This document shows positions 607 through 6,488 of a DNA stretch of 64,000 bases, piece after piece; the first letter of the stretch is position 1, and every line of letters starts with the position of its first letter. The stretch covers positions 987,001-1,051,000 of the forward strand of contig NZ_CP018155.1 of assembly GCF_001889045.1 (NCBI RefSeq). The letters run 5' to 3'. The notes beneath the pieces were generated by a model that was not told the DNA's origin, did not search any database, and was given only the letters and a program-made list of their open reading frames with translations. The stretch is from Tenacibaculum todarodis (GTDB taxonomy: Bacteria > Bacteroidota > Bacteroidia > Flavobacteriales > Flavobacteriaceae). Made by a program: the position numbers and the translations under genes.

Positions 607-621
607 GCAAGCTAAGTGCCA
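607..621 (-). promoter_or_regulatory. Sigma-54 (-24/-12) promoter
   Basis: On the minus strand the sequence reads TGGCAC-TTAGC-TTGC, an exact match to the sigma-54 consensus TGGCAC-N5-TTGC with the required GG-N10-GC spacing. Taking the C of the -12 GC at 607, transcription should begin near 595, about 19 nt before the ATG of the 63-residue gene. A sigma-54-dependent activator is encoded directly upstream (759-2084). I see no clear dyad enhancer between them. Confidence 0.75.
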
Positions 622-691
622 CTTTTTAAAACAAAAAAAAAATACAAGTCAAAGCATTCATTGTTAGCGGATTAAATAAACAAAATTTATA

Positions 692-729
692 TATCAAAAA
701 AAAACAGTTGAGGAAATACTCCTCAACTG
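692..729 (-). terminator. Rho-independent terminator of the kinase/regulator operon
   Basis: A 9-bp perfect stem (705-713 with 721-729, CAGTTGAGG/CCTCAACTG) closes a 7-nt loop. On the minus strand it is followed by an uninterrupted run of about 10 T. It lies 30 bp past the regulator stop and separates that operon from the sigma-54 promoter. Confidence 0.85.
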
Positions 730-758
730 CTACATAATTACTCGTTTTTAAATAAGCG

Positions 759-2084
759 TTATTTTAATTTTTCTCGAAGTGTTTTTCTATCAATTTGAAG
801 AATTTTTGCAGCTTTAGTTTTGTTATTATTTGTTGCTTTAAGCACTTTTAAAATATAGTTTTTTTCAAACTCTTTTAAAGATACTAGTTTCTGAGTATTA
901 GAAAAATCTATTTGGTATTTTATGTTGTCTGGTAAATGTTCAACATCTACAAACCTATCACACATAATAATTGCCCTTTGTATAACATTTTCTAACTCTC
1001 TTATGTTTCCTGGCCAATTATAACTTTTAAGAATATCCATTGCTTGTGGAGTAATTTTTAAAAATCGGTCTTTATATTCTATACCATATTTAAATAAGAA
1101 CTTATCTACTAATAATGGAATGTCTGAAACCCGCTCTAATAATGAAGGAACATCTATTTGCACAACAGTAAGTCTATAATACAAATCTTCCCTAAATAAT
1201 TCTTTTTTTATGAGGTCTTTTAAATCTACATTAGTTGCTGCAACTACTCTTACATCTACTTTTTCTGACTTTTGAGAACCTACTCTAACCACTTCTTTTT
1301 CTTGTAAAACACGTAATAACCTTAATTGAGTAGATAAGGATGCATTACCTATTTCATCTAAAAAAATAGTTCCGTTATTAGCTGCCTGAAAAAAACCTTT
1401 CCGATCTTTTTCTGCTCCGGTAAAAGCTCCTTTTACATAACCAAACAATTCAGATTCTAATAAATTTTCTGGTATTGCACCACAATTTACTACAACAAAA
1501 GGCGATGAGGAATATTTACCCATATAATGTATAGAACGTGCAACTAATTCTTTTCCAGTACCACTTTCTCCATGAATAAAAACCGTTGCTTTGTTGTTCT
1601 TTAAACGTTCTATAACGTCCGTAACTTTTTTCATAGCTATTGACGAACCTATTAATTCTCCGTAGGGTTTGGTTTCTATTTCTTGTTTTACAACTTTACT
1701 TTTATCTATTTTCGGTTTTGATTCTAAAGATTTAAAAATAGCAGATTTTAATTCTTCCTTTGTAAAAGGTTTCGTAATATAGTCTGTTGCGCCAGATTTC
1801 ATAACATCTAAAGCTCCATGTATAGAAGGGAAACCAGTTACCACCAATTTAGGGATTTTGGGATAATGTGCAGATGCATATTTTATTAATTCCAAGCCAT
1901 CTACACCTGGCATTTGTAAATCCGTAATTAATAAGTCTATTGAAGTATCTTTTAATATTTCTAATGCTTCTTTTACTGAAATAGCTTTATAAGTATGATA
2001 ATTTAAGGATTGTAAATGCCTCTGAATAAGTTCTAAAATATGAATATCATCATCTACAATTAATATATTTTCTTTGTTTAACAT
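759..2084 (-). CDS. Sigma-54-dependent response regulator (NtrC family)
   Basis: A 441-residue activator with the full NtrC layout. The receiver domain (about 5-118) has the acidic pocket DDD11-13, phosphoacceptor D55 in LLITDLQMPG, T83 and K105. The AAA+ domain (about 143-375) has Walker A GESGTGKE at 172-179, the sigma-54 contact loop GAFTGA at 219-224, Walker B GTIFLDE at 238-244 and a Sensor II region with NWPGNIRELEN. The C-terminal Fis-type helix-turn-helix (about 400-441) ends in AAKILQIDRKTLREKLK. It would be phosphorylated by the kinase encoded 3 nt upstream and open sigma-54 promoters by ATP hydrolysis. The closest target in view is the exact sigma-54 promoter at 607-621, which suggests control of the dehydrogenase operon. 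No key residue is missing. Confidence 0.93.
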   Translation of the reverse strand: MLNKENILIVDDDIHILELIQRHLQSLNYHTYKAISVKEALEILKDTSIDLLITDLQMPGVDGLELIKYASAHYPKIPKLVVTGFPSIHGALDVMKSGATDYITKPFTKEELKSAIFKSLESKPKIDKSKVVKQEIETKPYGELIGSSIAMKKVTDVIERLKNNKATVFIHGESGTGKELVARSIHYMGKYSSSPFVVVNCGAIPENLLESELFGYVKGAFTGAEKDRKGFFQAANNGTIFLDEIGNASLSTQLRLLRVLQEKEVVRVGSQKSEKVDVRVVAATNVDLKDLIKKELFREDLYYRLTVVQIDVPSLLERVSDIPLLVDKFLFKYGIEYKDRFLKITPQAMDILKSYNWPGNIRELENVIQRAIIMCDRFVDVEHLPDNIKYQIDFSNTQKLVSLKEFEKNYILKVLKATNNNKTKAAKILQIDRKTLREKLK

Positions 2085-2087
2085 AGT

Positions 2088-3191
2088 TTAGTTTTTAGGA
2101 AAACTGACAATAAATATTGTTCCTTTTGGTAAATTTGGTTGATGAGTTATAGTTCCTTTATGGCTCTTTATTATTCCATGAACAACACTTAAACCTAAAC
2201 CAGAACCATCTCCGACTGGCTTAGTTGTAAAAAAGGGATTAAAAATATTCTCTGAATTTTTAGCTTCAACTCCTTGCCCTTGATCAGAAATTTTAATTTG
2301 TACTGTTTTAATTTTCTCTTTAACAACAATATTAATTTCACCATTTTCAGGAGAAAAATAAATAGCATTTATCACTAAATTAAAAATTACTTGTGTTAAT
2401 TGAATTTTATCTACTTTTAAATAAATTTCTTCATCAGAATATACAACATTGAAAGCTATATTTTTTTTACTAAAATTAGGCTTTAACAGACTTATTGCTT
2501 CGTCTATAACTTTTTTTATATTTATTGAAGCCATTTGTTGTGGCATTTCACAAGAAAAAAACATTAATTTCTTTACTACTTCTCTAGAGTAAATTGCACT
2601 ATTTATTACTTTTTCTAGATCTTCACTTCCTATTTTATCATCTTTATAACGCTCTTTCAACAACTCTGTAAATCCTAAAATATTAGCCAAAGGTGTATTT
2701 AATTCATGCGCAATACCCGCTGTAATTTCACCCAAAATTGTTAACCTGCCAGCTCTTTCTATTTGTCTTTTGGTTATTTCTTCTTTTTCTTTTACCTCTT
2801 TACGCTCTAAAAAATCTCCAATTTCAGAAGCTATTTTATTTAACAATAGCTTTTCTTCTTCTAAAAAAGCATTTTCTGAAAATTTTAATTTAGAATACCC
2901 AACAGTTACAACTCCTTTAATTTTACCAAAAGGTTTTATTGCTGAAATAATAAATATTGCATCCTCTATTTTTTCTCCTTCAACTATAGTAAAATTATCT
3001 ATTTTAATCTCAACAAAAGCTTCTTTTGGAAACCTTATTGCTTCTTTTAAATTCAAGGAAATTTCTTTCAACAACATTTCAATGTTATCTAGCTTATAAC
3101 TTCTTATTAAAAAGCTTACATTATATAAGCAAGTTAATTCTTTTATCCGTTCTTTTAACTTTTCTTCTAGAACATTTCCTTGAAGCTTCAT
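2088..3191 (-). CDS. Soluble sensor histidine kinase
   Basis: A 367-residue kinase without membrane segments. The N-terminal half begins with a coiled-coil-like helix (1-30) and then a GAF-like sensory region (about 30-135). The dimerisation/phosphoacceptor helix has AGIAHELNTPLAN with H162. The ATPase domain shows N275 in NLVINAIYFS, the G1 box SDQGQG near 302-307, the F-box NPFFTTKP and the G2 box GSGLGLSV at 329-336. It is the first gene of a two-gene operon with the NtrC-type regulator. The absence of transmembrane helices implies a cytoplasmic signal, like NtrB, but there is no recognisable PAS domain and I cannot name the signal. Divergent from the TSUP gene at 3267. Confidence 0.9.
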   Translation of the reverse strand: MKLQGNVLEEKLKERIKELTCLYNVSFLIRSYKLDNIEMLLKEISLNLKEAIRFPKEAFVEIKIDNFTIVEGEKIEDAIFIISAIKPFGKIKGVVTVGYSKLKFSENAFLEEEKLLLNKIASEIGDFLERKEVKEKEEITKRQIERAGRLTILGEITAGIAHELNTPLANILGFTELLKERYKDDKIGSEDLEKVINSAIYSREVVKKLMFFSCEMPQQMASINIKKVIDEAISLLKPNFSKKNIAFNVVYSDEEIYLKVDKIQLTQVIFNLVINAIYFSPENGEINIVVKEKIKTVQIKISDQGQGVEAKNSENIFNPFFTTKPVGDGSGLGLSVVHGIIKSHKGTITHQPNLPKGTIFIVSFPKN

Positions 3192-4970: not shown

Positions 4971-5441
4971 CTAACCTAACCAAGCGTTCATCATCCATAA
5001 GGTTTTTTCTTGTTCTGCAATAAAATCACTCATCATAGAATTTGTACCCTCATCTTCTGCTTCATCAGCTAAATTTAAAATAGAACGCTCTATTTTTAAT
5101 AATTCAGAAATTGAAGTAACAACTAATTGTACAGCTTCATTATCATTAGAAATATTTTTTCCTACAGAAACAGACGCAACCTTAGAGTAATCGCTAAAAG
5201 TATGTAACGGTGTTCCTTGTAATGTTAAAATACGCTCTGCAATTAAATCTACTTTTTCTTGGGCGTCCGTGTAAAATTCTTCAAATTTAACGTGCAATTC
5301 AAAAAAATTTTTCCCTTTAATATTCCAATGCAAACCTCTTACATTCTGATAATACACTTGAAAATTTGCTAGTAATACATTTAATTCGTTAACTAGTTTT
5401 GTTGATTTTTCTTGATCTAATCCTATTATATTTGATTTCAT
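4971..5441 (-). CDS. dps: Dps-family ferritin, DNA-protecting iron storage protein
   Basis: 156 residues, the usual length for Dps. The inter-subunit ferroxidase ligands are all present with canonical spacing: H38 (GLHWN), H50-x3-E54 on one subunit and D65-x10-apart E69 on the partner (VDLIAERIL). Dps dodecamers oxidise ferrous iron with hydrogen peroxide and store it, and many bind DNA; the short N-terminus (MKSNIIGLDQEKS) has few positive residues, so DNA binding is uncertain. Divergently transcribed from oxyR across 105 bp with an LTTR-type operator in the middle, so peroxide induction through OxyR is likely. Confidence 0.92.
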   Translation of the reverse strand: MKSNIIGLDQEKSTKLVNELNVLLANFQVYYQNVRGLHWNIKGKNFFELHVKFEEFYTDAQEKVDLIAERILTLQGTPLHTFSDYSKVASVSVGKNISNDNEAVQLVVTSISELLKIERSILNLADEAEDEGTNSMMSDFIAEQEKTLWMMNAWLG

Positions 5442-5491
5442 AATTTATTAATTTTTATTGTTATACAAATTTCTGAAAAATTTATGAAGAT

Positions 5492-5516
5492 AAACTATAA
5501 TTACAATTGATAGTTT
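5492..5516. promoter_or_regulatory. Predicted OxyR operator between dps and oxyR
   Basis: Perfect dyad AAACTAT-N11-ATAGTTT (arms 5492-5498 and 5510-5516). It fits the LysR-type T-N11-A rule, and the ATAG half-site matches the known OxyR half-site. It sits near the centre of the divergent 105-bp region, where one bound OxyR could control both genes. Confidence 0.65.
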
Positions 5517-5546
5517 TAATATCTTTATCAAAAATTATTATACAAA

Positions 5547-6488
5547 ATGACTATAACTCAATTAAAATATGTTTTGTCTGTTGCAGAATATCACAATTTT
5601 ACAATAGCTGCAGAGCATAGTTTTGTTACACAACCAACATTAAGCATGCAAATTCAGAAATTAGAAGATGAATTGGATGCAAAAATATTTAATCGTTCTA
5701 AAAAACCTATTCAATTAACCGAAGTTGGTAAACGAATAGTTGAACAAGCAAAAGTAATTGTTGATGAAAGTAATAGAATTTTAGATATTGTACATCAGCA
5801 AAAAGGCTATGTTGGTGGCGAGTTTAAACTTGGAATTATACCAACAGTAATGCCAACTTTATTACCAATGTTCTTAAATAATTTTACTAAGAAATATCCA
5901 AAAGTTAAATTAATTATTGAAGAATTAACTACAGAAGAAATTGTTAGAAAATTAACTGATGGTCATATAGATGCTGCAATTGCTGCAACTCCGTTAGAAA
6001 ATGAAGCGATAAAAGAGAAACCATTATATTATGAACCTTTTATTGGCTTAGTTCCTGAAAATCATAGACTTTATAGCAAAAAAGAAATAACTTCTGATGA
6101 ATTAGAAATGGATGATATCTTGTTATTAGAAGACGGTCATTGTTTTAAAGATAGCGTTATAAATTTATGTAGAACTCATAAAGCGGATAACAAAAAAGGA
6201 TTTCAATTAGAAAGCGGAAGTTTTGATACGTTAATCAAACTTTCTAAAGAAGGATTAGGAATGACACTTCTACCCTATTTACATACGTTAGATTTAAGTG
6301 AACTAGACAAAAAACATTTAAGAGCGTTTACGAGTCCGCCTCCAGCAAGAGAAGTAAGTTTAATTTATCATAAATCGCAATTAAAAATGCAATTGATAAA
6401 AGCTTTAAATGACACTATTGATGGTGTAATTAGAGGCGCAATTGCCTTTAGCGATGTACAAATTATTAGTCCGTTACAGAAGAATTAG
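5547..6488 (+). CDS. oxyR: OxyR, hydrogen peroxide-sensing LysR-type regulator
   Basis: 313 residues. The N-terminal winged helix-turn-helix (1-60) includes the recognition helix region QPTLSMQIQKLE, followed by a linker helix and a LysR substrate-binding domain (about 90-300). C199 in EDGHCF and C208 in INLCRT fall at exactly the positions and spacing of the redox cysteines of E. coli OxyR (disulfide 199-208), which separates OxyR from other LTTRs. Oxidation by peroxide would change its contacts with DNA and activate defence genes; the divergent dps is the obvious target. It is followed by a shared terminator. Confidence 0.93.
   Translation: MTITQLKYVLSVAEYHNFTIAAEHSFVTQPTLSMQIQKLEDELDAKIFNRSKKPIQLTEVGKRIVEQAKVIVDESNRILDIVHQQKGYVGGEFKLGIIPTVMPTLLPMFLNNFTKKYPKVKLIIEELTTEEIVRKLTDGHIDAAIAATPLENEAIKEKPLYYEPFIGLVPENHRLYSKKEITSDELEMDDILLLEDGHCFKDSVINLCRTHKADNKKGFQLESGSFDTLIKLSKEGLGMTLLPYLHTLDLSELDKKHLRAFTSPPPAREVSLIYHKSQLKMQLIKALNDTIDGVIRGAIAFSDVQIISPLQKN

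Follow-up and report, generated by a model that had tools for sequence, protein, structure and literature searches.

The 64-kb window analysed here, bases 987001-1051000 of the 3.02-Mb single-contig genome of the marine flavobacterium Tenacibaculum todarodis, likely contains a self-contained two-component/sigma-54 module that drives a small operon. As comparison with related loci indicates, the genes of a histidine kinase and of an NtrC-type activator are followed at a near-fixed distance by tandem dyads, a -24/-12 promoter, and then the operon. The predicted operon comprises a mini-protein with four cysteines, a glutamate dehydrogenase, an Rnk/GreA-like protein, and one or more helical proteins; some relatives also have a universal stress protein. 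A two-component sigma-54 activator beside its own target is a known kind of arrangement, and the present module is described nowhere in the literature searched, which consisted of open-licence papers.

Locus and comparison sets

The genes of the module lie on the minus strand in the order kinase, activator, candidate enhancer with hairpin (743-703), sigma-54 box, mini-protein, and dehydrogenase (Table 1). Beyond the window edge, the dehydrogenase is followed by an Rnk/GreA-like protein of 137 amino acids (aa) and a 125-aa protein without family. The original prediction covered 607-3191, a span that excludes the operon itself (576 and below).

The family comparison set consists of 199 genomes. 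The wider set of 41 loci (the own locus, L072-L091, and L126-L145) was picked for the mini-protein or the kinase; the activator is present in 40 of these and absent from L089. The genus set holds 26 same-genus loci, of which 25 are usable for the dyad test, the other one having no activator in reach upstream. Two named relatives that carry the mini-protein, L198 and L199, are Polaribacter.

Promoter and candidate enhancer

The perfect -24/-12 site that had been claimed at this locus is exact on the minus strand, lies 30 bp before the mini-protein gene, and is the only exact match in the window. Taken alone, one 10/10 match in a stretch of 64 kb is no more than suggestive. Near-matches with at most two mismatches number 19 in the window against 25 expected; this lack of enrichment counts against the box and favours the alternative that it is a chance match and that the operon is under a housekeeping sigma factor. 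The box is taken as real because it is conserved in relatives, and not by the window match alone. A box of at least 8/10 is found within 330 bp past the activator stop in 35 of the 40 loci, compared with 4.5% of 800 mononucleotide shuffles, and a box of at least 9 in 22 loci, compared with none of the 800 (a T at position 6 was scored as half a point). The activator stop and the box are 124-151 bp apart in 32 of the 40. At least one of the 35 scored boxes (L079, at 186) is probably spurious, and the good box of L079 adjoins the mini-protein. Seen from the target side, a box of at least 8/10 lies no more than 90 bp from the mini-protein start codon in 27 of 30 loci (the first loci, from the single-sequence search), and of 30 family genomes, 26 have both activator and dehydrogenase at most 1.5 kb away from the mini-protein. 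The original prediction had proposed its own check, namely whether box, 63-residue gene, and dehydrogenase are conserved beside the two-component genes in relatives, and these counts bear it out. In L090, L137, and L138, the promoter precedes an extra Rnk-like gene. Conservation after the activator gene rules out a chance box; with the box, its position, and the enhancer spacing all conserved across genera, the probability left to chance is next to negligible.

In the whole genome, the consensus with at most one mismatch occurs at 56+53 sites, compared with 11+10 for the reversed control pattern. Eight of the sites with at most one mismatch are copies of TGACACATCAATTGCA at C1:124319-128363 (L010-L017), spaced by multiples of 237 bp; they form a long tandem repeat, which inflates the genome box count. 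A second TGGCAC half-element is present 10-12 bp upstream of the box in L046, L047, L050, L053, L054, and L062, which represent several genera. The rpoN gene is present in one copy in the own genome and occurs in 199 of 199 family genomes, so it is not discriminating.

Directly after the activator stop, there are two tandem 15-bp dyads of the GGGTA-N5-TMCCC type, which the original prediction had missed. They look like the enhancer of the activator, consisting of paired upstream activator sites (UAS), and they mostly accompany the promoter. In the family loci, the mean score of the pair is 15.7 of 20, compared with 11.0 in shuffles. A pair of at least 14 is found in 31 of the 40 family loci and in 19 of the 25 genus loci, but in only 6 of 260 other 3' flanks, which serve as a natural control. 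All 25 loci of the genus test set reach at least 13, as against 2.8% of shuffles. The two dyads are spaced by 19 bp in 20 of the 31 loci scoring at least 14 and by 18-21 bp in the remainder, and in all 30 scorable loci (of 40), 95-99 bp separate the box from the centre of site 2. The spacer between dyads and box has an identity of 0.378, compared with 0.322 when shuffled (122 pairs), while the dyads reach 0.59 and the box 0.65; despite its near-random sequence, the length of the spacer is constant at 87-91 bp. A near-random spacer of constant length is the pattern expected of an activator-binding enhancer held at a distance.

The position of the dyads was also followed at loci with a different gene order. 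In L079 and L083, where other genes lie between the activator and the promoter, the dyads are at the promoter, with the centre of site 2 98-99 bp from the box. In L140, dyads are also found at a second promoter, at the same 98-99 bp from that box. L198 and L199 have no kinase or activator match within 5 kb upstream, and L199 keeps a dyad pair (14/20) 94 bp from its box. As a sequence feature, paired upstream activator sites are present in the family, with a weak pair (13/20) in the own genome. Seven other boxes of the own genome were checked and have no good dyad pair (best 11/20).

Several points weigh against the dyads and the box as one conserved regulatory unit. Site 1 is weak in the own locus (5/10), and the 13/20 of the own pair is a score reached by 2.8% of shuffles. 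The dyad pattern was derived from the same 40 family loci, and the separate tests are the genus set and the moved promoters only; moreover, the distance was scored in 30 of the 40 loci, and the own locus is among the other 10. The spacing pattern is broken in L086 and L080, and the boxes of L077 and L089 are weak. The pair of L198, 94 bp from the box, was likened to the genus site by eye, scores only 12/20, and is outscored by another pair there. The loci share descent, and locus counts are thus not counts of independent events. In addition, two other true activators of the own genome could in principle act at this promoter: one has no receiver and lies four open reading frames (ORFs) upstream of groES/groEL (L194, C1:1669000-1679000), and the other has a receiver and lies near a peroxidase gene.

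Table 1. Features of the module, with positions in the window.
Feature	Position	Strand	Remarks
Sigma-54 -24/-12 promoter TGGCACTTAGCTTGC	607-621	minus	10/10 consensus match; predicted start near 595
Candidate enhancer (UAS) site 1 GAGTAATTATGTAGC	729-743	minus	degenerate here, 5/10; equivalent stronger in most relatives
Candidate enhancer (UAS) site 2 GAGGAGTATTTCCTC	710-724	minus	8/10; follows site 1 by 19 bp; distance of centre to -24 box 96 bp
Hairpin followed by nine T, intrinsic-terminator-like	703-731	minus	-18.3 kcal/mol; z -3.7 and -4.6 (two stretches); overlaps UAS site 2
Mini-protein, 63 aa	385-576	minus	ORF; C-x2-C-x5-C-x11-C-S-E-F; no family
Glutamate dehydrogenase, N-terminal part	1-382	minus	leaves the window; full 432 aa at L002:17382-16084
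NtrC-type response regulator, 441 aa	759-2084	minus	receiver, AAA+ with GAFTGA at residue 219, Fis-type HTH
Soluble histidine kinase, 367 aa	2088-3191	minus	phospho-His 162; HisKA + HATPase; adjoins activator

Hairpin after the activator gene

A clean terminator was originally proposed to separate the two units. The hairpin itself is real, as its folding energy and the nine T indicate, but its core is site 2 of the candidate enhancer, which changes the original picture. In this genus, one dyad also seems to serve as a terminator. It could be argued that the dyads serve the activator transcript solely as RNA terminators, with a real sigma-54 promoter and enhancers located elsewhere. The strength of the own hairpin and the similar T-tracts of same-genus relatives favour this explanation, and by a simple terminator rule, the dyads of L126 and L145 are likewise covered by a terminator. 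Together with the own locus, these are just 3 of 39 loci, whereas the same rule finds a separate terminator beginning about 79-87 nt past the activator stop in 8. The L198 stretch folds no better than shuffles (z -0.15), and the fixed distance between dyads and box also speaks against a role in termination only. Dyads as mere terminators are disfavoured by the few terminators over them, by the moved promoters of L079, L083, and L140, and by L199, which retains its dyads although the 5 kb upstream contain no activator gene; the explanation is judged quite improbable.

Regulatory proteins

The kinase was predicted to be soluble, and its most hydrophobic 19-residue window of 1.42 is below membrane-helix level, in agreement with a protein that has no membrane helix. 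It is found in 45 of the 199 family genomes. All 30 orthologues compared retain Cys21 (K-E-L-x-C-L-Y) and Cys214 (F-F-S-C-E-M-P). These cysteines may permit a thiol-based signal and leave room for the redox link suggested originally, even though conserved residues can also be structural. The activator likewise has the intact GAFTGA loop that had been claimed for it. Among NCBIfam equivalog models, it scores 393.5 bits against NtrC (TIGR01818), where the cut-off is 558.6, and 391.4 bits against ZraR (NF007689), where the cut-off is 760, and ZraR is among its closest models.

Apart from the module, sigma-54-type intergenic boxes lie 61-70 bp before an HSP70 (dnaK) gene, a Clp ATPase gene, and a cold-shock gene (C1:137571 in L018, C1:294286 in L025, and C1:575331 in L004). 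They lack good module dyads and are consistent with the stress genes of Flavobacteriia (chaperones and proteases) that are predicted to be sigma-54-dependent in the available part of PMC12316311. The receiver-less activator of L194 is a candidate regulator of the chaperone boxes.

Target genes

Mini-protein: The four cysteines are retained in all 30 mini-proteins compared, and the C-x2-C-x5-C spacing is presumably reminiscent of FNR. Neither a Pfam model, an NCBIfam model, nor a solved-chain match was found, and the structure model is poor (pLDDT 55). A protein search yielded 145 scored candidates out of 5.8 billion, and 116 of the 145 were retained; the named ones are 'hypothetical' or 'uncharacterized', with one 'Zn-ribbon'. 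The mini-protein is present in 30 of the 199 family genomes with a single-sequence search and in 32 with a profile, and a phylum-wide scan detected it in 4 of 395 genomes, all from the same family. Two copies are joined in one chain in L070. The 63-residue protein was said to open the transcript, and this is usually the case, as no other recognised gene precedes it in 25 of the 40 loci. All 32 mini-protein genomes of the 199-genome family set lie within the 45 kinase genomes (P about 7e-27 if genomes are independent).

Rather than a dedicated subunit of the dehydrogenase, the mini-protein is probably an adaptor of the response that binds a metal (Zn or Fe-S), the putative metal binding being read from its cysteines only. 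An obligate subunit is disfavoured by the retention of the mini-protein where the dehydrogenase is lost. In L171, L172, L173, L175, L177, L182, and L184, the dehydrogenase is apparently lost in place, and the promoter, the mini-protein, and the Rnk-like gene are retained. Among seven dehydrogenase-less loci, omega is 0.13-0.36 in 15 of 21 pairs (dS at least 0.4) and 0.17-0.90 in the 6 closer pairs. The mini-protein thus looks to be under purifying selection also without the dehydrogenase, although omega may fail to register so recent a loss. Its C-terminal tail is shortened in four of the dehydrogenase-less loci (L175, L177, L182, and L184), which leaves some room for a link between tail and dehydrogenase.

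Alternatively, the mini-protein could regulate the kinase by feedback, in the manner of ZraP and ZraSR. Its frequent first place in the cassette, its restriction to kinase genomes among the 199 of the family, and the position of ZraR among the closest activator models are in line with such a role. In enterobacteria, ZraP is a zinc-binding chaperone made from a divergent sigma-54 promoter, and a title cited in the available part of PMC4987338 names it a repressor of ZraSR. ZraP is periplasmic, whereas the mini-protein has no signal peptide by eye. Furthermore, 13 of the 45 kinase genomes have no mini-protein match, even though the kinase match is itself weak or partial in three of them, and L128 and L131, also among the 13, hold a short divergent C-E-H-F form. 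A feedback role is on balance rather doubtful, and an adaptor of the response is preferred.

Dehydrogenase and cassette: The dehydrogenase matches solved glutamate dehydrogenases (1b3b_A, E 1.2e-123, residues 17-432) and stays below every NCBIfam equivalog cut-off (best 457 of 750 bits). Its homology to glutamate dehydrogenases extends over the full length, and glutamate oxidation is predicted. The own genome has four further genes with an ELFV dehydrogenase domain. When genes within 6.5 kb after the activator are counted in the 40 loci, the cassette contains the Rnk/GreA-like protein in 35, the dehydrogenase in 31, the mini-protein in 30 (short divergent forms included), one or two helical proteins without family in 30, a protein of about 120 aa with a signal-like N-terminus (by eye) in 13, and the universal stress protein in 11. 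The Rnk-like protein matches PF01272, and its best NCBIfam model, 'nucleoside diphosphate kinase regulator', gives 91.9 bits, below the cut-off of 109; the universal stress protein matches PF00582. Several of the family-less helical proteins (L002:15652-15275, with relatives in L075-L090) show by eye an E-C-x-D-x-x-C-D ... H-E motif, which could mark a metal-binding helical bundle. A ferritin-like gene (Dps-type by eye) and a LysR-family regulator are located near the module at 4971-6488 of the window, and neither belongs to a gene cluster found repeatedly at the loci of relatives.

The locus was originally suggested to be a nitrogen- or redox-linked switch. In its full form, the nitrogen explanation is an NtrBC-like switch of nitrogen assimilation with glutamate dehydrogenase as the essential output. 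The presence of the dehydrogenase in 31 of the 40 loci speaks for it, as does the control of glutamate dehydrogenase by sigma-54 in Bacillus subtilis (PMC3162934) and, as reported, in Bacillota (PMC12316311), both taken from the available parts of these papers. On the other hand, a full-length dehydrogenase is missing in 8 of the 26 genus loci, where about 1.5 kb beside the mini-protein was read and short remnants are found in 4 of the 8, and L142 and L143 also have none; promoter, mini-protein, and Rnk-like gene persist. The four other ELFV dehydrogenase-domain genes of the genome and the activator score below the NtrC cut-off also argue against it. The nitrogen link is not supported as stated, and a switch of this type is unlikely. 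The cassette varies in make-up, and its other members include Rnk/GreA-like proteins and universal stress proteins; it is therefore better explained by a general response to stress or metabolic state than by nitrogen control alone.

Proposed mechanism

The best-supported model, built from sequence comparison, is that phosphorylated activator bound to the dyads would drive sigma-54 polymerase at 621-607. In this model, the soluble kinase would sense a cytoplasmic signal, such as redox or energy/nutrient stress, and phosphorylate the activator. The activator would then assemble on both dyads, whose centres lie some 122 and 141 bp upstream of the predicted start, and remodel the sigma-54 RNA polymerase at the box. 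The fixed spacings would keep the enhancer at a single distance and on one face of the helix. The second dyad would have developed, in this genus, into a hairpin that terminates the activator transcript as well.

The enhancers of the sigma-54 activator class are usually flexible in geometry. A bolder version of the model would make the module a family-wide stress switch of marine flavobacteria, whose enhancer works only at a rigid geometry (dyads 19 bp apart and site 2 at 97 +/- 2 bp from the promoter), whose site was turned into the activator terminator in one genus, and whose Cys4 mini-protein senses redox state or a metal and in turn regulates a cysteine-sensing, soluble kinase by feedback. 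This version is speculative and rather improbable as a whole. As a unit that is complete, conserved, and testable, the module runs from kinase and activator through candidate enhancer and promoter to targets. The constant distance of the enhancer and its overlap with a terminator give concrete predictions, and the Cys4 mini-protein represents a small family without an annotation model.

Comparison with known systems

NtrBC: In the NtrBC system, a kinase and a receiver-AAA+-HTH activator act with paired dyads upstream of a sigma-54 promoter, and the present module is alike in this respect. Its dyad sequence is unlike what we take to be the NtrC site. No glutamine synthetase or PII gene was noticed, and no search was aimed at them.

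Bacillus subtilis: The sigma-54 system of this species is known by the names SigL/RocR. It has in common with the module a glutamate dehydrogenase under sigma-54 with a dedicated enhancer. Unlike in Bacillus subtilis, the activator here is a two-component response regulator. The enhancer is downstream of the gene in Bacillus subtilis, according to the title of a paper cited in the available part of PMC3162934, whereas the candidate enhancer here is upstream, between the activator gene and the promoter. Regulation by sigma-54 outside Pseudomonadota is described as less explored in the available part of PMC12316311, which names a sigma-54 glutamate dehydrogenase for Bacillota only and does not describe the module.

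ZraSR-zraP: The nearest system in layout, as far as the available part of PMC4987338 describes it, is ZraS/ZraR-zraP. In both, a kinase and a sigma-54 activator adjoin the sigma-54 promoter of a small metal-associated protein, and both relate to a stress response. The promoters of ZraSR are divergent and ZraP is located in the periplasm, whereas all genes of the Tenacibaculum module run in one direction. In further contrast to ZraSR-zraP, the Tenacibaculum module has a soluble kinase, and its target is a multi-gene cassette with a dehydrogenase.

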